Assembly: GCF_006716315.1 (NCBI RefSeq)
Contig: NZ_VFOV01000001.1
Location: forward strand, 2,806,501-2,870,500
Length of the DNA: 64,000 bases
Source: Nocardioides albertanoniae
GTDB lineage: Bacteria > Actinomycetota > Actinomycetes > Propionibacteriales > Nocardioidaceae
Direction: 5' to 3'
The notes under the pieces were generated by a model. That model searched no databases and was not told the DNA's origin. It was given only the letters and a program-made list of their open reading frames with translations. The position numbers and the translations under genes were made by a program. How positions within the stretch are numbered: the stretch's first letter is position 1; each line of letters starts with the position of its first letter. This document shows, piece by piece, positions 1,443 through 45,799 of the stretch.

Positions 1443-5165
<3,723 letters not shown>

Positions 5166-37546: not shown

Positions 37547-37697
37547 CCAGGGTGCGAGTTCAGCACAACCATCCACCGAAACATCAGCCTCGAATAGGCG
37601 CTCTCCACTCATGCCGCAGGCAGCCCGCCCAACAAGAACTTGCAGATAGTCCTTCATGCCGCCACCCTCAACGCTCCCGATACATCTGCTCTGGCGG

Positions 37698-37785
37698 TGA
37701 CAGTCTGATTCGGGACCAGTGTGACGGTCTGATTCGGACCCACCCGGGCTTCGGCGTGGCGTCGTGACGGCTTGATCTGGACCCA
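37698..37785 (+). repeat. left end of the IS21-mer transposon: three 21-bp repeats
   Basis: Three direct copies of a unit of form TGAC-(A/G)-G-(T/C)-(C/T)-TGAT-...-GGACCCA occur at 37,698-37,718, 37,722-37,742 and 37,765-37,785. They are the probable IstA binding sites. The first two match the right end in spacing and sequence; the third has no clear partner there. Confidence 0.8.
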
Positions 37786-37848
37786 CTTCCGTGGCGTCAG
37801 GAGGACCCGCATCCAGCGGTCCTCGCGGCACCGGAAGTGGGTTTCGGG

Positions 37849-39566
37849 ATGAGGGTGCGTGTGGAACTGTTCGCTGCGATCCGTCGGGACGCCCGGGTCG
37901 AGGGCATGTCGATCCGAGCGCTCGCACGCAAGCACCAAGTCGGACGCGGCACCGTTCGCCAGGCCCTCACGTCCGCGGAACCACCGCCGCGGAAGACCCC
38001 GGTGCGTTCCTCGCCCCGGTTGGATCCGTTCAAGTCGGCCATCGACGACATGCTCCGCGCCGACCTTGAGGCGCCGCGGAAGCAACGGCACACCGCCCGC
38101 CGGATCCACGTCCGCCTCATCGAGGAACACGACGCCATTGAGGTGTCGTACTCGACGGTTCGCGACTACGTCCGCATCCGCCGCACGCAGATCGGCCTCG
38201 AAGCTGGCCGCCGGGTCGAAGTCATGATCCCCAGGAGCACGCACCAGGCGCAGAAGCAGAAGTCGACTTCGGCGAGCTCTACGTCATCCTGGCCGGGGTG
38301 AAGACGAAGGTCTTCCTCTTCACATTCAGGTTGAGTTACTCCGGGAAGGCGGTGCACCGGATCTACGCCACCCAAGGCCAAGAGGCGTTCCTCGAGGGCC
38401 ACATCGCCGCGTTCAACGAGATCGGCGGCATCCCCACCCGGCACGTCCGGTACGACAACCTCACCGCCGCAGTCACCCGGGTCGTCAACGCGCGCGGTCG
38501 TGAGCGGGTAGAGAACGACCGCTGGGTGCTGTTCCGCTCCCACTTCGGGTTCGACGCGTTCTACTGCCAGCCGGGCATCGCCGGGGCACATGAGAAGGGC
38601 GGCGTGGAAGGCGACGTCGGCCGGTTCCGCCGCCAGCACCTCGTGCCCATGCCCGTCGTCGACTCGCTCGACGAGCTGAACGAGAAGGTCCGTGCCTTGG
38701 ACGCCGCCGACGACCGCCGACGGATCTCGTCGCGGATCCGGACCGTCGGCGAGGACTTCGCGACCGAACGCGAGAACCTCGCGCCGCTCCCGGTCGAGGG
38801 GTTCGACCCCGGGCTGATGCTGAACCCGATGGTCGACCGCTCCGCGATGATCACCGTCCGCATGGCCCGGTACTCCGTCCCGGCGCGGTTCATCCACCGC
38901 CGCGTCCGCGTCTCCTTGCGCGCATCCGAAGTCGTCGTGTTCGACGGCCGACTCCAGATCGCCCGGCACCCCCGCGTCATCACAAGGGGTGGCCAGTCGG
39001 TGAACCTCGACCACTACCTCGAGGTGCTCAAGGGTAAGCCGGGCGCATTGCCAGGCTCCACCGCGTTGGCGCAGGCCCGCGAATCGGGGGCGTTCACGCC
39101 TGCGCATGAGGCGTTCTGGGCGAACGCCCGCAAGCGGCTCGGGGATGCGGTCGGCACCCGGGAACTGATCGACGTGCTCCTACTGCACCGCGCCATGGCC
39201 GCCGACGAAGTCGAAGCCGGGCTGCTCGCCGCAGTGAGCGTCGGTGCAGTCTCAGCTGACGTGGTCGCGGTCGAAGCACGCCTGCACACCACCCGCGCAG
39301 CGCCCACCGGGGCCAGTTCAGACCGTCATCCCGTTGCGCAGCGCAGCGATGGCGAACGACGAGATGTCGACACCAAGCGCAGCCGGAAGGTCGTGTCCCT
39401 CACCGAACGCCTGCTGCTCGACCCGGCCGCGGTCATCGCCGGCCTCCCGCCCGACACCCGGCCGCTGCCGTCGATGGAGAAATACCAGCAACTGCTCGGC
39501 CGCCGCACCGGCACCGACCACCACCCCGACCCGATGAGTCCCTATGAGAGCGGAGCACCCCGATGA
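37849..39566 (+). pseudogene. istA: IS21-family transposase IstA, frameshifted
   Basis: The N-terminal part (37,849-38,301) has the helix-turn-helix MSIRALARKHQVGRGTVRQAL and the linker RRIHVRLIEEHDAIEVSYSTV. At CCCC (38,229-38,232) one C seems missing. The other frame continues with EVDFGEL, the catalytic Asp of the DDE core, then VRYDNLTAAV (second Asp) and AHEKGGVEGDVG (Glu), and a beta-barrel C-terminal domain. Adding one base gives a normal IstA of about 570 residues. The downstream frame could start at a GTG at 38,298 but would lack the first Asp and the DNA-binding domain. It may be inactive, rescued by slippage, or a sequencing error. Confidence 0.85.
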
Positions 39567-40372
39567 GCACAGTCACCAGCGTGACAACCACCTTGCGCCG
39601 CCGCCGCGGCCTGACCGAGGAAGCCGCCGTAGCGGCGGTCGACCAGGCCTGCCGGAGGCTCCGGCTCCCGACCATGCGGGCCCTGCTTGGCGACGCGGTC
39701 GCGGCGGCGAACAAGGACCAGTTGACCTACACCGGATTCCTCGCCGAGCTGCTCCTGGCCGAGTGCGACGACCGCGACCGTCGGTCCACCATCCGGCGCG
39801 TGAACGGCGCCGGGTTCCCGCGGAGCAAGTTCCTCGCGGACTTCGACTTCGACGCCAACTCGAACATCATCCCCGCCACCATCCACCAGTTGGCGACCGG
39901 CGAGTGGGTGCGGAAGGGCCAGCCGCTGTGCCTGATCGGGGATTCCGGCACCGGCAAGTCTCACCTGCTCATCGGCCTGGGGACCGCAGCCGCGGAAAAG
40001 GGATTCCGGGTAAAGTACACCCTCGCCACGAGGCTGGTGAACGAGCTTGTAGAAGCAGCCGATGAGAAGCAGTTGGCCCGCACGATCGCTCGTTACGGCC
40101 GCGTCGACCTGCTCTGCATTGACGAGCTCGGCTACATGGAACTGGACCGCCGCGGCGCCGAACTCCTCTTCCAGGTCCTCACCGAGCGAGAGGAGAAGAA
40201 CAGCGTGGCAATCGCGTCCAACGAGGGCTTCGCCGGCTGGACCAAGACCTTCACGGACCCGCGCCTGTGCGCGGCCATCGTCGACCGCCTCACCTTCGGC
40301 GGCAACATCATCGAAACTGGTACCGACTCCTACCGGCTGGCGTCGACCCGGTCAGGGAACGCGTCGCGGTGA
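39563..40372 (+). CDS. istB: IS21-family helper ATPase IstB
   Basis: A 269-residue AAA+ ATPase of the DnaC/IstB type. Walker A is LIGDSGTGKSHLL near residue 125; Walker B is LLCIDELGYMEL; sensor regions include VAIASNEGFAGW and the C-terminal DRLTFGGNIIETG. IstB loads on target DNA and directs IstA-mediated insertion. The start overlaps the istA stop by ATGA, the standard IS21 arrangement. It is intact and full-length. Confidence 0.95.
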   Translation: MSTVTSVTTTLRRRRGLTEEAAVAAVDQACRRLRLPTMRALLGDAVAAANKDQLTYTGFLAELLLAECDDRDRRSTIRRVNGAGFPRSKFLADFDFDANSNIIPATIHQLATGEWVRKGQPLCLIGDSGTGKSHLLIGLGTAAAEKGFRVKYTLATRLVNELVEAADEKQLARTIARYGRVDLLCIDELGYMELDRRGAELLFQVLTEREEKNSVAIASNEGFAGWTKTFTDPRLCAAIVDRLTFGGNIIETGTDSYRLASTRSGNASR

Positions 40373-40420
40373 CGCAATCAACCGAGCCTGCTTCGTGCGC
40401 ACGCCGCACCCGGTGGGCTG

Positions 40421-41299
40421 TCACTGCGTGCTGTCCCGCGTGGTCATCGGGCGCCCCTGAAGGATCCGGCGGCGTCGCTGGAGAACCCCGAGCGCCAGCA
40501 CTACCAGCACAGACGCGGCGGCGAGCGCGCCGATGAGTGTCGTCCGTGTCTGGATCCAGCTGGAGACCACCGCGGAGACGTCAGTGAGTCCGCCACCACG
40601 ACCCGCGGCGACCGGGGCGTCGCTGGTGGCCGCCGGATACCAGTACCAGGCCAGATAGGCGCCGGTGAGCAACAGGACGACAGCGGTGACCCTTGGGCCA
40701 TGACGGGCCAATCGCGCGACGTGGCGGGTGAGTCCGCTGCCTGCCGCGGCGGTGGCCAGGGCGAGCAGCAGCAGGACGGTCGCCGAGCCAGCAGCGTAGA
40801 CACCGAAGACGAGCAGGAGCCCGGCATAGCTGGCGGTGGCCTGCGCCTGCGCGATGACCGCGAGGATCACCCCGAACGTGCACGACAGCGAAGCCAGCGC
40901 GTAGCCGACCCCAAACGCAGCCATCCGGGCAGTGGGTGGGAGTCCCGCGGCTGCCCGGCCGGGGATCCGAGGCACCCGCACCGAGACCGAGCGTCCGGCT
41001 AGCATCCACAGGCCGAGAACCACCAGCAGGATGCCGACGGCCAGGCCGAGCGACGGCGCGGCGCGAATCAGCCCTCGGGCGCCGGCGCTGACTACCAGGC
41101 CAGCTGCCGCGAGGGTGCCGGCGAACCCCACCGCCAACACGAGACCGGCCCGCAGCGCCCGCAGCAGCCGCACCGGGACCGTTGAGGCATCGGTGTCGCC
41201 GAGGGTGTGGGTGATCCAGGCCGGGAGTAGCGCGAACCCGCACGGGTTCACGGGCGCGACCATGCCGGCCGCGAAGGCGAGGGTGAGCAGTCCGCCCAT
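40421..41299 (-). CDS. CcdA-like membrane protein of the mer locus
   Basis: 292 residues with about seven membrane helices in the DsbD/CcdA pattern. Conserved cysteines occur in VAPVNPCGFALLPAW near residue 20 and in ALASLSCTFGVILAV, the pair that passes electrons across the membrane from thioredoxin. It would keep the neighbouring exported thioredoxin-like protein reduced. A CcdA/redoxin pair is a recurring part of actinobacterial mer loci. It is last in the minus-strand operon, 3 bases after the redoxin gene. The C-terminal 60 residues extend past the usual CcdA core with an extra helix. Confidence 0.8.
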   Translation of the reverse strand: MGGLLTLAFAAGMVAPVNPCGFALLPAWITHTLGDTDASTVPVRLLRALRAGLVLAVGFAGTLAAAGLVVSAGARGLIRAAPSLGLAVGILLVVLGLWMLAGRSVSVRVPRIPGRAAAGLPPTARMAAFGVGYALASLSCTFGVILAVIAQAQATASYAGLLLVFGVYAAGSATVLLLLALATAAAGSGLTRHVARLARHGPRVTAVVLLLTGAYLAWYWYPAATSDAPVAAGRGGGLTDVSAVVSSWIQTRTTLIGALAAASVLVVLALGVLQRRRRILQGRPMTTRDSTQ

Positions 41300-41302
41300 G
41301 GA

Positions 41303-41827
41303 TCAGGCTCCGGCCTTTGCCAGTTCGGCGGTGATCGTCGCGGCGTCGGGGTCGGTGGCGCGGAAGGTCACCGTGCCGTCGGCGTCGACGACGATCAGGG
41401 TGGACAGAGCGGCCACCTCGAATCGCCGGGAGAGTGCCGCGCCATCGTCGATTGCGGCCGGTACGTGTTCGGCGTCGACGGACTCCATGAAGTCGCCGAT
41501 CAGGGCCTTGGATTCGCCGGGGTCCATGTCGACGGCGAGGAAGCTTGCCACGGTGCCGGCGTTCTCGGCGGTGGTGGCTGCCTCGCCGAGGGACCGGACG
41601 CCGTTCACGCATTCGCCGCACCCGACGGAGAAGAAGAACACCGTGGTGGGCTTCCCGTTTGCGGGCAGGCTGATCTGCTGGCCATCGACGCTGGTCACGG
41701 TGGCGGGTGAACCGGAACCGGCGGTCGCGGGGTCGGCACTGTTGCCGCAGGCGGTCAGGGCAAGCGATCCGGCGGCGAGTACGGCGGCGATCGAGAGCGC
41801 GGCGCGGTGGCGGCGGGTGATTCTCAT
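41303..41827 (-). CDS. thioredoxin-like lipoprotein (TlpA/redoxin type)
   Basis: 174 residues. The signal ends in lipobox LTAC. The mature protein has a thioredoxin fold: TTVFFFSVGCGECVNGV (CxxC as CGEC), then ASFLAVDMDPGESKA and a cis-Pro-position strand TLIVVDADGTVTF. It is probably anchored on the outer face of the membrane and handles Hg(II) or thiol exchange with CcdA. The start is the ATG at 41,827, overlapping the stop of the MerT-like gene by ATGA; an upstream extension in the same frame is antisense to that gene and is rejected. Confidence 0.82.
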   Translation of the reverse strand: MRITRRHRAALSIAAVLAAGSLALTACGNSADPATAGSGSPATVTSVDGQQISLPANGKPTTVFFFSVGCGECVNGVRSLGEAATTAENAGTVASFLAVDMDPGESKALIGDFMESVDAEHVPAAIDDGAALSRRFEVAALSTLIVVDADGTVTFRATDPDAATITAELAKAGA

Positions 41828-42117
41828 CGGTTCTGCTCGTCCTTCGGGTCGACGTTTTCGTTGGTGGGCATGGGCGGGCAGCAGCCGTGGCCGGCGGTGT
41901 CGCCGCCGCGGCGGGAGATGGCAATCAGCGCGAGGATCGCCAGGGCGATCCCGGCGCCGATGACCCACGGGTTGCGGAGGAACGCGCCGATACCGGCGAT
42001 CGCGCCACCGGCGATGAGGATGGGGGGCAGGGCGCAACAGGCGACCATGAGCAGCGCGGCGCCGGCTCCGAGGAGCAGGCCGCTGCCTCCCGGGCGGTCG
42101 TCGTGGTTGGACATCAT
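41824..42117 (-). CDS. MerT-like mercury transport membrane protein
   Basis: 97 residues with two or three membrane helices. The first carries a vicinal cysteine pair (LMVACCALPPILIAGGA), as in MerT-type mercury importers that pass Hg(II) through paired cysteines. A second pair lies in the tail (AGHGCCPPMP). It brings Hg(II) in for MerA to reduce. The start is one of two adjacent ATGs at 42,117 and 42,114; an ATG at 42,129 has a ribosome-site-like sequence placed too close. The family is inferred from the cysteine pattern and operon position. Confidence 0.75.
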   Translation of the reverse strand: MMSNHDDRPGGSGLLLGAGAALLMVACCALPPILIAGGAIAGIGAFLRNPWVIGAGIALAILALIAISRRGGDTAGHGCCPPMPTNENVDPKDEQNR

Positions 42118-42148
42118 CGGTGTTCTCATTCCCTTCAGTGGGTATGGG

Positions 42149-42808
42149 TCAGCAGCAGCTGTGGCTGTCGTCGGCCGCGGCGGGCGCCTGGAGGCGGTTG
42201 AGCAGGCCGATGGTGAGGGCGGCCCCGATCCGGTATGCCTCGGCCACCGGGACCACCTCCGCGACGGGGTGCTCGGCCAGCCAGCCCGCGGCGTCCTCGG
42301 CGGAGGTGAAGTAGTGCACCTGGCTGCAGAAGGAGGAACGGATCGAGGTGATCTGCTCCGGGTTCACCAGCGACACCACCGCGGTGGGCGGATCGACGCT
42401 GGTTGCACCTTGTGTGGGGTCGACGTTGACCCGAACCGGCTCGCCGCTGACCGGGGAGGCCGACTCCACGCGTGCCGGGCGGTCCAGCAGGGCGGGGAAG
42501 ATCAGGGTGTCCAGCGCACACCAGGTGTAGAGCTCCTCACCGGCCACGATGAACCGGTGCGGGGTGGGGCGCAGGGTGAGGCCCTGGCCGATGATCCGGC
42601 CCTGGTCGTCGTACTCGGTGTCCGGCACCGCGGCGAGCCCACGCCGTACCTCGTCGATCGGACGTCCGGCGGCCGCGGCGAGTTGCTCGACGGCGACGGG
42701 GTCGCCGTCGACGAGCAGTCGCAGCAGCGGGACCAGCAGGCCTGCGTTGAGGCCGGTCTCCTCGGGTCGGGTGAGTCGTTGGGGTAGTTGCGTGCTGAGG
42801 TCCGACAT
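42149..42808 (-). CDS. merB: alkylmercury (organomercurial) lyase
   Basis: 219 residues. MerB cleaves the carbon-mercury bond of organomercurials. All three catalytic residues are visible: the Cys and Asp of LYTWCALDTLIFPAL and the second Cys of IRSSFCSQVHYF. The N-terminal winged-helix-like region (VEQLAAAAGRPIDEVRRGLA) and central segment TLRPTPHRF are typical. The protein ends SHSCC, an extra cysteine pair that may pass Hg(II) on to MerA. It lies 48 bases from merA in the same operon. Confidence 0.94.
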   Translation of the reverse strand: MSDLSTQLPQRLTRPEETGLNAGLLVPLLRLLVDGDPVAVEQLAAAAGRPIDEVRRGLAAVPDTEYDDQGRIIGQGLTLRPTPHRFIVAGEELYTWCALDTLIFPALLDRPARVESASPVSGEPVRVNVDPTQGATSVDPPTAVVSLVNPEQITSIRSSFCSQVHYFTSAEDAAGWLAEHPVAEVVPVAEAYRIGAALTIGLLNRLQAPAAADDSHSCC

Positions 42809-42855
42809 GGCGGATGCCTCCTTCAGGAGTGGGGTGGGCGCTGTGTGGGTGCTGG

Positions 42856-44280
42856 TCAGGCGCAGCAGGACAGCTTCGAGACGTCGGTGGTGAAGGCCTT
42901 GGCAACGATCCGGATGCCCTCGGCCATGGTCAGGTAGGGCGCCCAGGCGTCGGCGACCTCGGCGATGGTCTTGCCGAGGATGTGCACGCCCGCGGCGGCG
43001 AGCTCGCCGGCGTCCTTGGCGACCGCTGTCAGGCCGAGGATCTCGCCGGTGTCTGCGTTGGCGACCATCTTGATGAAGCCGCGCGTGTCCCGGTTGACCA
43101 GCGCCCGGGGCACGTATTCCAGCGGTAGCACGCGGCAGTCGCAGCGGATCCCGGCCGCGAGGACTTGGGCCTCAGTCATCCCGACTGCGCCGATCGCGGG
43201 ACTGGTGAACGTGACCCGCGGCAGCCGCATGTAGTCCACGGACTTCTCGGCGTCGGTGAAGGCGTTCTCGGCGACCAGGGTGCCGTGGTGGGCGGCGACG
43301 TAGACGAACTCGGGCTGCCCGGTCACGTCTCCGGCCGCCCAGATCCGGGGGTTGGAGGACTGCAGCTGGTCGGTGACCACGATCTCACCGACCTCGCCAG
43401 TTTTAACCTCGACCGCGTTGAGGTTGAGCCCGTCGGTGACCGGCCGGCGGCCGAGCGCGACGAGGAGCTGGTCGGCGCGGAACTCCTGCTCGCCACCGGA
43501 GACGTCCGCTGTGACGGCCACCTGGCCGGTGGCCGCGTCGCGGGTCGCGCGGGTCGGGACCGCGCGGCGGACCACCCGGATGCCCTCGTCGGCGAAGACC
43601 TCCTGAAGTGTCTTGGAGACTTCCGGCTCCTCCTGCGACGCCAGCCGGGAGCGAACCAGCAGGGTCACCTTCGACCCGATCCGGGCGAACATCTGGGCCT
43701 GCTCCAGCGCCACGTAGCCGCCGCCGAGGACGAGCAGAGAGTCGGGGACCTCGGCGAGCTCCATCGCTGTGGTCGAGGTCAGGTACCCGGCCTCGTCCAG
43801 TCCGTCGATCGGCGGGGTCCAGGGCCGGGAGCCGGTGGCCACCAGGTAGTGCTCGGCCGCGATGGTCTCGACGCTGCCATCCGCCGCGGCGACCTCGAGC
43901 AGGGGCGAATCCGGAGTGCCGGCGAACGCGGCGTTGCCGCGGCGGATCTCCCAACCGTAGGAGTCGGCGACGTCGACGTACTTCTCACCCCGCAGGGCCT
44001 CGACGAGATCCTGCTTTCCGCCGATCAGGGCCGGCATGTCCACCGGGTCGGCGGCAGCGGCGATGCCCGGGAACCGCTTCGACGCGTCCGCGGCGACGTG
44101 CCGGACCTCCGCGGCTGCGATCAGTGCCTTGGACGGCACGCAGCCGGTGTTCACACACGTGCCGCCGAACGTGTCGCGCTCGACCATCACCACCGACTTG
44201 CCCAGCGTGGTCGCGCGAATGGCCGCGGCGAACGCACCGCCGCCGGATCCGATGATCGCGAGGTCGTACCTGGTCTGCAT
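42856..44280 (-). CDS. merA: mercuric reductase
   Basis: A 474-residue flavoprotein disulfide reductase that reduces Hg(II) to Hg(0) with NADPH. The FAD-binding GSGGGAFAAAIRA is near residue 10, the redox-active CVNTGCVPSK near 42, the NAD(P)H-binding LVLGGGYVALEQAQ in the middle, and the second FAD motif RIWAAGDVTG later. The C-terminal KLSCCA holds the mercury-binding cysteine pair that distinguishes MerA from lipoamide dehydrogenase. The N-terminal HMA domain found in many MerA proteins is absent. The ATG start has GAGGA six bases upstream. Confidence 0.97.
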   Translation of the reverse strand: MQTRYDLAIIGSGGGAFAAAIRATTLGKSVVMVERDTFGGTCVNTGCVPSKALIAAAEVRHVAADASKRFPGIAAAADPVDMPALIGGKQDLVEALRGEKYVDVADSYGWEIRRGNAAFAGTPDSPLLEVAAADGSVETIAAEHYLVATGSRPWTPPIDGLDEAGYLTSTTAMELAEVPDSLLVLGGGYVALEQAQMFARIGSKVTLLVRSRLASQEEPEVSKTLQEVFADEGIRVVRRAVPTRATRDAATGQVAVTADVSGGEQEFRADQLLVALGRRPVTDGLNLNAVEVKTGEVGEIVVTDQLQSSNPRIWAAGDVTGQPEFVYVAAHHGTLVAENAFTDAEKSVDYMRLPRVTFTSPAIGAVGMTEAQVLAAGIRCDCRVLPLEYVPRALVNRDTRGFIKMVANADTGEILGLTAVAKDAGELAAAGVHILGKTIAEVADAWAPYLTMAEGIRIVAKAFTTDVSKLSCCA

Positions 44281-44331
44281 CCCGATTCCTCACCGAGTGT
44301 GTTGGGAAACGCTTCTGATGCAGCCACAATG

Positions 44332-44357
44332 GACCTTCCAGTACAGGGGAAGGTCAA
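44332..44357. promoter_or_regulatory. MerR operator and overlapping mer promoter
   Basis: A perfect 8-bp dyad GACCTTCC (44,332-44,339) / GGAAGGTC (44,348-44,355). Read on the minus strand, TTGACC is a -35 element and CATTGT lies 19-20 bases on, giving the over-long spacer typical of MerR-controlled promoters. It drives merA onward; merR diverges from the other side. MerR would bend this DNA when Hg(II) binds. Confidence 0.8.
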
Positions 44358-44386
44358 GCGAGACCTGCGACACGATGGAGGCCGGG

Positions 44387-44776
44387 ATGCGGATCGGAGA
44401 ACTCGCCGAGGCGGCAGGCACGACCACCAAGACCCTGCGGTTTTACGAAGAGCAAGGGCTGCTGCCCCCGGCCGAACGCACACCGGCCGGCTACCGCGAC
44501 TACACCCCCGACGCGGTCAGCCGGATCGACTTCGTCCACCGCGGCCAAGCGGCCGGGCTCACCCTCGCCCAGATCAAGCAGATCCTCGACATCCGCGACC
44601 ACGGCCAAGCTCCCTGCGGCCACGTACGTGACCTGCTGGACGCGCGCCTTGCCGACATCGACGCGCAGATCGCCGACCTCACAACACTTCGCGACAACGT
44701 GGCTGCGCTCCGCGACGATGCAGCCCTCCCAGAGCCCGAAACCTGTAGCCCCGATCAGGTCTGCAGATACCTATAG
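44387..44776 (+). CDS. merR: mercury-responsive MerR-family regulator
   Basis: 129 residues. The N-terminal winged helix is MRIGELAEAAGTTTKTLRFYEEQGLLP. A dimerisation helix follows. The three mercury-binding cysteines of MerR proteins appear in QAPCGHV, ETCSPDQVC. This spacing supports Hg(II) rather than another metal. The start is ATG 44,387; an in-frame ATG at 44,375 is possible. It diverges from the mer structural genes and lies just inside the right end of the transposon. Confidence 0.92.
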   Translation: MRIGELAEAAGTTTKTLRFYEEQGLLPPAERTPAGYRDYTPDAVSRIDFVHRGQAAGLTLAQIKQILDIRDHGQAPCGHVRDLLDARLADIDAQIADLTTLRDNVAALRDDAALPEPETCSPDQVCRYL

Positions 44777-44830
44777 CCCTCGCCAATCGGCAGTGACCAC
44801 CGAGACCAAGGGCGTGATTAGCCGGTGCCA

Positions 44831-44877
44831 GGTGGGTCCGAGTCAGACCGTCATCGTGGTCCCAGATCGGGTTGACA
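44831..44877 (-). repeat. right end of the IS21-mer transposon
   Basis: Two 21-base units in inverted orientation to the left end, separated by 3 bases as on the left. The inner unit and next two bases match the left end at 22 of 23 positions; the outer unit matches at 15 of 21. It begins 54 bases after merR and runs into the 3' end of the TetR gene. Confidence 0.8.
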
Positions 44878-45570
44878 CAGCCACATCTGCCCCACCGCGG
44901 CAACTGCCACCTTTGCCGCAACCTCGATCTGCGCCTGGGGCACCCCGCAGATACGGAGGCTGGAGACCGCAACGCCGTGGAGCTCCTTGTTGGTCACCGT
45001 GTCGCCGGAGGCACGCGTGCCGATGACGCTCTCGACAGCATTCAGGATCAACTCACCCAGTTGGAGCATGGCGACTGTGTCTGTCACCGCCTGCGATCCA
45101 CACGAGATGCCGAGCGACCCGTACGCCTCCCGCAGTTGGCCACGCGCAGCGGCGTACTCCCGAGCTTCGGGCGTCTGGGAGACGTCGGGGCATGCGGGCA
45201 ACATCCCAATGTTGTGCATGAGCGTGGCAAGAGATTCGGCGTCGTGAAAAGCGAGGAGGTAGAGCGCTGCCTCCGGGCTCTCGATCCGGGCCAGGTCGCC
45301 GACCCTGTCCAGCGCCGGCCGCACGGTCATCTCGAGAAGCTCGGCGAGGATCCCGGGCTTGCCGGCGAAGTGGTAGTAGAGGCTCGCTTGTCGGATCCCG
45401 ACCGCTTCGGCGATGTCGCGGGTGGAGGTGCCGGCGTAGCCCTGGCCGACGAACAGGCGAGCGGAGACGGCGAGGATCTGGTCACGCGGGTCTGCGTGGG
45501 TGTCGGAGGCCGGAATGTGTCGGGGACGGCCCGGGCCCGGACGGCGATTGTTGGAGGCTGCGGAACTCAT
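44851..45570 (-). CDS. TetR/AcrR-family regulator with a transposon-derived C-terminus
   Basis: 239 residues. The N-terminal helix-turn-helix is ILAVSARLFVGQGYAGTSTRDIAEAVGIRQASLYYHF, a standard TetR DNA-binding domain. A helical ligand domain follows with several cysteines (LPACPDV, ISCGSQ, RICGV). The ATG at 45,570 has GGAG upstream. The last eight codons and the stop (44,851-44,877) lie inside the transposon right end, so the original C-terminus was replaced when the transposon inserted. The truncation seems small. Its ligand and targets are unknown, and any partner gene once downstream is now separated from it. Confidence 0.85.
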   Translation of the reverse strand: MSSAASNNRRPGPGRPRHIPASDTHADPRDQILAVSARLFVGQGYAGTSTRDIAEAVGIRQASLYYHFAGKPGILAELLEMTVRPALDRVGDLARIESPEAALYLLAFHDAESLATLMHNIGMLPACPDVSQTPEAREYAAARGQLREAYGSLGISCGSQAVTDTVAMLQLGELILNAVESVIGTRASGDTVTNKELHGVAVSSLRICGVPQAQIEVAAKVAVAAVGQMWLCQPDLGPR

Positions 45571-45799
45571 GTTGCTCCGTCGCAGATGTGGTGGATGGAT
45601 CCCGGGGCCACCGATCGGAGCCAACCATTCGGGACCCCGGGTTCTCCCAGTCTTCAATAATATTCATTCTATTACAAGGACCTTGCACGCATTACGTTCA
45701 AGGAACCCTTGCGAACACGCATGTCTTGCGACCATGATGGATAGCCCAACGCCACCCCGAAGCACCTCGGGCGGGCACACAACAACGGAGGCACTCGGC
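45571..45799. promoter_or_regulatory. AT-rich divergent promoter region
   Basis: An AT-rich stretch around 45,652-45,678 stands out sharply from the surrounding high-GC DNA and includes an AATAATATTCATT run with local dyad symmetry. It lies between the TetR gene (minus) and the small gene at 45,800 (plus). It is a good candidate for the TetR operator and promoter. GGAG lies upstream of the plus-strand start. Confidence 0.5.

Follow-up and report, generated by a model that had tools for sequence, protein, structure and literature searches.

Can a mercury-resistance (mer) operon travel as the internal cargo of an insertion sequence (IS) of the IS21 family, or does it merely lie beside one? The question is raised by a 64,000-nucleotide stretch of the Nocardioides albertanoniae genome (contig NZ_VFOV01000001.1, positions 2,806,501 to 2,870,500; hereafter, the window), in which the transposition genes istA and istB and a mer operon are enclosed by matching inverted ends. 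Because copies in other genomes share the same boundaries, target duplications flank them and two empty sites can be found, we regard it as almost certain, on the strength of sequence comparison, that positions 37,692-44,883 form an IS21-family unit transposon that carries mer as internal cargo and has moved repeatedly. The same evidence bears out an initial annotation of the window, which had proposed an IS21 unit with mer inside its own ends.

Boundaries and transposition genes of the unit

The unit is 7.2 kb long and consists of istA-istB followed by a divergent mer operon. The initial annotation had recognized it as a unit but placed it at 37,698-44,877; its true ends lie 6 bp further out on each side. 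The 47-bp arms from which that span was drawn do match in inverted orientation at 37 of 47 positions, exactly as claimed, and the next-best antisense match to the left arm in the whole 64-kb window reaches at most 26 of 47. The full inverted repeat measures 56 bp (37,692-37,747 and 44,828-44,883; 44 of 56 positions match), with TGG...CCA as the outermost bases of the unit. Allowing up to three mismatches, the end motif TGACNGTCTGATTCGGNACC occurs at three sites in the window, all within the two ends (0.12 expected from shuffles), and the same scan found no end sub-repeat after istB. The features of the ends and the transposition genes are as follows.

37,692-37,747 (+): left terminal inverted repeat, 56 bp, beginning with TGG; this start is common to 13 of 13 other copies that retain the left end
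37,698-37,717 (+): end sub-repeat L1, from the motif search
37,722-37,741 (+): end sub-repeat L2, from the motif search
37,765-37,784 (+): end sub-repeat L3, a third, internal and more different repeat
44,828-44,883 (-): right terminal inverted repeat, ending with CCA; the right ends of the copies agree
44,834-44,853 and 44,858-44,877: sub-repeats R2 and R1 within the right terminal repeat
37,683-37,689 (no strand): left copy of the probable target duplication CATCTGC
44,884-44,890 (no strand): right copy of the same 7-mer, directly abutting the right end
37,837-38,301 (+): first istA frame, N-terminal part (NF033546, profile positions 2-105)
38,298-39,566 (+): second istA frame, catalytic and C-terminal part (NF033546, profile positions 135-293; Mu-transpos_C_2)
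39,563-40,372 (+): istB, AAA+ helper ATPase (NF038214, 242 bits, cut-off 200)

The two overlapping istA frames of the window result from a one-base frameshift relative to the majority of aligned copies. In the copies L008, L010 and L011, istA is a single frame of 572 amino acids, whose product is annotated in RefSeq as an IS21 family transposase. With the gene split, the two window frames score 70 and 128 bits against the IS21 model NF033546, each below its 160-bit cut-off, and a relative with 64% identity (L076) passes with 254 bits. Because its istA is frameshifted, the window copy presumably no longer moves alone, unless the apparent frameshift reflects a sequencing error or another source provides IstA in trans. 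The earlier description of the unit as self-contained thus applies to its other copies and is not certain for the one in the window.

Copies at unrelated sites and their empty targets

The initial annotation had suggested looking for the same unit at unrelated sites and for sites that lack exactly this segment. A DNA search of PLSDB (94 records with any match, four in which a single place accounts for 80% or more of the query) and a search of genome contigs for the unit's redoxin gene (24 loci, 10 of them at 98%) together gave 14 further copies, all in actinobacterial records and with Rhodococcus, Mycobacterium, Mycolicibacterium, Mycolicibacter and Mycolicibacillus as hosts. Both ends are spanned by 12 of the 14, one of which is split by another insertion, and the other two are cut by a contig or record end; each boundary is therefore reached by 13 copies (L013 is cut by its contig on the left, L011 by its record on the right). 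The alignments overrun the left boundary (37,692) by no more than 3 bases and the right one (44,883) by no more than 7, as chance matches in the flanking DNA would allow.

Sequence is available on both sides of ten copies, and nine of these are bounded by direct target duplications of 6-9 bp: 6 bp in L008, L009, L016, L017, L019, L020 and L021, 7 bp in L010 and 9 bp in L022. Target duplications of IS21 elements are 4-8 bp long, a range that the 9-bp case exceeds. The flanks of the nine copies are nine different sequences. Among the 11 full-length aligned copies, any two differ by 0-6 substitutions in about 7.2 kb (L009 also has a 10-base gap). Together with the different flanks and the duplications, this indicates that transposition has been recent and repeated. 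Two contigs, L014 (7,184 bp) and L018 (7,183 bp), contain nothing but the unit, an outcome to be expected when a repeated element is assembled.

Empty sites were found for two of these insertions. That of L022 is on the M. gilvum Spyr1 plasmid pMSPYR101 (L117), where 1,500 bp on each side are identical to the surroundings of L022 and the 9-bp target is present in a single copy. That of L010 is on a plasmid from R. qingshengii CX-1 (L118), which matches the flanks of L010 at 93.5% and 95.7% over 1,186 and 323 bp. Evenly sampled sets of species rarely contain the unit: it occurs in full in 1 of 391 genomes of the host's order (the host itself, which has a single copy; 77 others have partial matches, to mer genes or istAB, at E ≤1e-50) and in 1 of 397 genomes of the order of G706 (G706 itself, the genome of L017; 13 others have partial matches at E ≤1e-200).

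The mer operon as cargo

Between istB and the right end lie 4.4 kb of cargo, in which merA, merB, the merT-like gene, the redoxin gene and ccdA run on the minus strand toward istB, and merR diverges from merA.

40,421-41,299 (-): CcdA-like membrane protein, named after its RefSeq-annotated counterparts in the copies
41,303-41,827 (-): redoxin-family protein with a CxxC motif (Cys70, Cys73), Pfam match above cut-off
41,824-42,129 (-): MerT/MerE-like small membrane protein with Cys-Cys pairs 31-32 and 83-84 (weak MerE match, E 8e-4, below cut-off)
42,149-42,808 (-): merB, organomercurial lyase (NF009710, 285 bits, cut-off 193)
42,856-44,280 (-): merA, mercuric reductase with a C-terminal Cys-Cys pair (TIGR02053, 552 bits, cut-off 454)
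44,326-44,357 (-): putative MerR-type promoter/operator, read by eye
44,387-44,776 (+): merR-family regulator, 129 amino acids, with Cys77, Cys120 and Cys126, Pfam match above cut-off

All genes that the initial annotation had listed are present inside the ends, though the MerT-like match is weak and the CcdA-like protein, which matches no Pfam or NCBIfam model, takes its name from the copies. With merR, merA, merB and a transport gene, albeit a weakly matched one, the set has the composition of a broad-spectrum mer operon. The merA product does not have the N-terminal domain of longer MerA proteins (PRK13748 is matched from profile position 97), and the regulator is matched better by CadR/ZntR models than by MerR models, with every score below cut-off. 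The cargo packs its space tightly, with 48 bp left between the end of ccdA and istB and 51 bp between the end of merR and the right repeat.

In MerR-type promoters, a dyad lies within the spacer between the -35 and -10 elements. The gap between merA and merR shows such an arrangement: a putative operator dyad, GACCTTCC-N8-GGAAGGTC, at 44,332-44,355, within the 20-bp spacer between a putative -35 element (TTGACC, 44,352-44,357) and a -10-like CATTGT (44,326-44,331).

We therefore envisage the following course of events, with the enzymology taken from the IS21 literature. IstA, a DDE transposase, would bind the sub-sites of both 56-bp ends and, together with the AAA+ protein IstB, would insert everything between them into new DNA, usually with a 6-bp duplication; the mer operon, occupying the space between istB and the right end, would travel as cargo. 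In the cell, from whose mer genes we infer mercury resistance, the MerT-like protein would act as importer, MerB would split organomercury and MerA would reduce Hg(II) to Hg(0), under a MerR-type regulator. The redoxin and CcdA-like proteins probably keep thiols reduced.

Divergence and insertion site of the window copy

The window copy differs from the other copies by 197-200 substitutions, which are unevenly spread. Divergence is nil in the left 158 bp, 0.8% in istA, 0.4% in istB, 0.5% in merR, 1.3-1.4% from ccdA to merT and 2.8% at the right end, and it rises to 5.3% in merB, 7.2% in merA and 8.5% in the merA-merR gap.

42,200-44,344 (no strand): divergent segment comprising most of merB, merA and the operator, at 5-8% compared with 0-3% elsewhere

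This stretch has an abrupt edge near 44,344-44,434 and a gradual one in merB, and is probably a recombination tract of different ancestry. Either version may be the replaced one, as that of the window and that of the copies stand at a similar distance from other cassettes.

A TetR-family gene (44,851-45,657, minus strand) has the insertion at its 3′ end, and its frame now terminates within the unit. A search with the right flank against 58 genomes, the host included, did not find an empty site for this insertion; outside the host, it gave partial matches in 42 genomes, none covering more than about 320 of the 817 bases, with identities of 67-96%. The initial annotation's expectation of empty sites was thus borne out for L022 and L010 and not for the window insertion. 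On its left side, the 7-bp duplication is offset by 2 bases (TC, 37,690-37,691) from the end of the unit; this extra TC could be a remnant of a tandem-junction insertion.

Relatives with and without cargo

We surveyed IS21 loci chosen by their likeness to the mer unit, of which 45 of 47 gave istA and istB (L075 and L087 were dropped). A locus was considered delimited when its 26-bp ends matched at 17 or more positions and were flanked by a duplication of at least 5 bp, and 17 of the 45 pass. Loci with 15-16 end matches were left uncounted (L084, L094, L110, L112, L113, L114), and 22 gave nothing. As a control, left ends were paired with the downstream sequence of other loci; 4 of 267 such pairs pass the threshold of 17, and 26 of 267 pass one of 15.

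Behind istB, 11 of the 17 delimited relatives have 0.9-7.3 kb, a proportion that is no estimate for IS21 at large because the loci were picked by likeness to the unit. The other six end 41-367 bp after istB. Two of these six, L064 (2,860 bp, R. opacus plasmid) and L065 (3,065 bp, Tsukamurella plasmid), have the same kind of ends as the mer unit and 6-bp duplications; L092 (2,509 bp), L093 (2,518 bp), L102 (2,687 bp) and L111 (2,552 bp) are likewise cargo-free with duplications. According to the initial annotation, its proposal would fail if relatives ended just after istB and the mer locus stood in the same place without the element. Such short relatives do exist; a mer locus in that place without the unit was not seen.

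The cargo of the longer relatives is varied. L079 (9,930 bp, duplication CCTGTCG) carries a copper-type P-type ATPase, a multicopper oxidase and a sensor kinase; L082 (9,578 bp, ACCAGG) carries a copper set of this type and a response regulator; and L076 (3,917 bp, GGCTAC) carries two GNAT acetyltransferases. Further cargos include a MarR regulator (L085), a TauE-family transporter (L106), an SDR protein with a LuxR-type regulator (L107) and an FAD oxidoreductase (L115). Cargo is unassigned in L086, L101 and L104, the cargo proteins of L101 having given no match when scanned, and L008 holds the identified mer cargo among the delimited relatives. Outside the delimited count are three loci with ends and no target duplication: L077 (9,930 bp, matching ends), L083 (ends 10.4 kb apart) and L078 (8,794 bp, matching ends), the last carrying ArsA (812 bits, cut-off 650) and an SBF-family transporter, which we take to be an Acr3-like arsenite exporter. 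In this actinobacterial branch of IS21, the mer operon is one cargo among several alternatives.

Nine of these loci (L076-L084) form a Propionibacteriales subgroup in the tree, with support of 100/100. From the left end to istB, L079 is 87-90% identical to seven others, and most pairs of L076, L078, L082 and L083 are 92-96% identical. L077 and L079 agree at 99.6% across their whole 9,930 bp, and L080 agrees with the arsenic element L078 at 99.3% across 5.5 kb. In L076, L078, L080, L082, L083 and L084, same-strand homology to L079 breaks off where istB ends. When both strands were compared, the copper cargo of L082 proved homologous to that of L079 (72-78% DNA identity) and inverted relative to istAB, and L076 and L078 had no cargo of more than 60 bp in common with L079. 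The copper cargo of L081 is collinear with that of L079, mostly at 74-77%. Cargo and transposition genes therefore differ in divergence and orientation. Right ends of the subgroup also vary more, deviating from the search pattern at 0-6 of 26 bases compared with 0-2 of 42 for the left ends; the end search found no right end in L080, L081 or L084. The mer units L008 and L098 group with L099 on a branch neighbouring this subgroup, L098 (the same as L031, an Arsenicicoccus locus) having an IstA identity of 88% and a mer set cut in merA.

Because much the same istAB and left end carry different cargo in this subgroup, and its right ends are more variable, we lean, by no great measure, toward viewing this actinobacterial IS21 branch as a modular platform. 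Its left end and istA-istB would be near-constant, and a slot behind istB would exchange cargo blocks that have their own right end, with mercury, copper, arsenic and other versions moving alike.

Related mer sets on other carriers

In eight loci (L024-L030 and L032), a mer set with 80-84% DNA identity to that of the window lies inside a 5.5-kb unit with an IS481-type transposase (NF033577, 296 bits, cut-off 224). These units resemble the IS21 unit in having merR-merA-merB-merT-redoxin-ccdA as internal cargo and differ from it in their single IS481 transposase and their ends. Five of the eight are flanked by 6-bp CTAG-centred duplications, with L024 and L027 inserted at one and the same site; L025 and L029 lack duplications, and the right end of L028 could not be located. 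One type of mer operon has thus been taken up by two unrelated IS families.

Two further loci show other settings. A Micropruina contig (L033, position 3524) has an R1-like IS21 end, with 5 mismatches in 26, beside merR, and no istAB match on the contig. On a Cellulosimicrobium plasmid (L012, 5877-13246), merB-merA-merR adjoins genes for a recombinase, TniQ, TniB and a Mu-type transposase, in a Tn5053-like arrangement.

Relation to known transposons

The unit has the hallmarks of the IS21 family: an IS21-type IstA, IstB downstream of it, ends with multiple sub-repeats and terminal TG/CA, and short target duplications. It departs from the family in holding more than istA and istB between its ends, which is the usual composition and not a defining feature. 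Passengers inside one pair of ends, constant boundaries, duplications and empty sites also make it a unit transposon, or transporter IS. A composite transposon was considered and rejected, as the single copy in the host genome leaves no second flanking IS.

Other mer carriers are comparable. Tn5053/Tn402 (tni) elements, with a DDE transposase and an AAA+ ATPase, likewise hold mer inside inverted ends, and Tn21 and Tn501 of the Tn3 family, whose duplications are 5 bp, are unit transposons with an internal mer operon. In contrast to the former, the mer unit has no TniQ or resolvase among the scanned open reading frames, and its IstA and IstB are of the IS21 type; in contrast to the latter, its duplications are 6-9 bp and no Tn3 transposase or resolvase was matched by any of the ten frames scanned, nine of them in the unit.

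Available passages on IS21 describe members with two reading frames between two ends, ends of 55 bp with two sub-repeats each and terminal CA, a 5-bp target duplication, and the roles of IstA and IstB (PMC10122671). Like IS21 and IS5376, the mer unit has istA-istB in this order with overlapping frames, at least two sub-repeats per end and terminal TG/CA, and by analogy the chemistry of an IstA tetramer with IstB would be expected of it too. Unlike these elements as described in those passages, it has a 4.4-kb resistance operon between istB and the right end. Transporter ISs (tIS), derivatives of ISs with passenger genes, are a known class (PMC9330008), and an IS481-family passenger case was reported from an Arthrobacter plasmid (PMC6305408). 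The mer unit shares with tIS one transposition module and one pair of ends with the passengers within. It differs from those named in the accessible text of PMC9330008, which include no IS21-family tIS with mer, in its two-protein, target-capturing IS21 machinery. We found no description of an IS21 unit with mer in the open-licence literature (titles, beginnings of abstracts and passages, ISfinder not covered). Passenger-bearing ISs are thus already known, and an IS21 unit with mer appears, from the texts available in part, to be undescribed.

Alternative explanations

Several observations weigh against a mobile mer unit, the case for which comes from sequence comparison. The window copy has a frameshifted istA, a duplication 2 bases off on the left side and no empty site in the 58 genomes searched with its right flank. 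Among the other copies, L009 is 10 bases shorter with istA and istB unannotated, L010 has its istB split by another insertion, and L015 has no duplication, with pieces of the unit on both sides (3846-3971 and beyond 11153) and an N at one junction. The insertion in L010 (6537-9763) is 3.2 kb long and contains two site-specific integrase genes; the end pieces flanking L015 may reflect an assembly fault or a partial tandem.

A mer operon caught by chance between two unrelated IS21 ends, in a composite or patchwork whose true IS21 ends after istB, would agree with the 6 of 17 delimited relatives that do end there. We consider this extremely improbable: end sub-repeats in the window occur only at the two outer ends, the host genome has no second IS, the 14 copies share whichever outer boundaries they retain, and the empty sites, which lack the whole unit, refute it together with the target duplications. 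It is more conceivable, if still unlikely, that a former IS21 cargo now spreads mainly by plasmids and homologous recombination, with transposition a minor event of the past. PLSDB plasmid records account for four of the 14 copies, and the record of one more, L022, bears a plasmid title; the window copy combines a broken istA with a recombined merB-merA stretch, the istB of L010 is interrupted, and the unit is rare in both species samples. Such spread would not account for nine plainly flanked copies with nine different flanks and nine direct duplications, nor for so few substitutions between full-length copies.

Given the preferred reading of a repeatedly moved IS21 unit, the cargo may have been acquired in more than one way. 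Instead of recombination into a cargo-free IS21, IstA may have used a right-end-like sequence beyond mer as a surrogate right end. This one-ended capture would explain why six of eight Propionibacteriales loci lose their same-strand homology to L079 where istB ends, why right ends stray further from the pattern than left ends, as if the cargo had brought its own right end, and why the copper cargo of L082 is inverted relative to L079, which simple collinear exchange does not give. However, these patterns are also accounted for by recombination that exchanges whole blocks, or by cargo that has inverted between the ends, and the missing right ends of L080, L081 and L084 also speak against it; we hold such capture to be possible and rather doubtful.

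Implications

Because IS21 elements are usually described and annotated as two-gene ISs, cargo behind istB is easily severed from its carrier. If the platform view is true, a route by which mercury, copper and arsenic resistance spread in actinobacteria has been missed so far. Related modules with different cargo would also constitute a natural experiment on the change from IS to transposon, one that bears on the tolerance of IstA and IstB for 2.5 to 10 kb between the ends.

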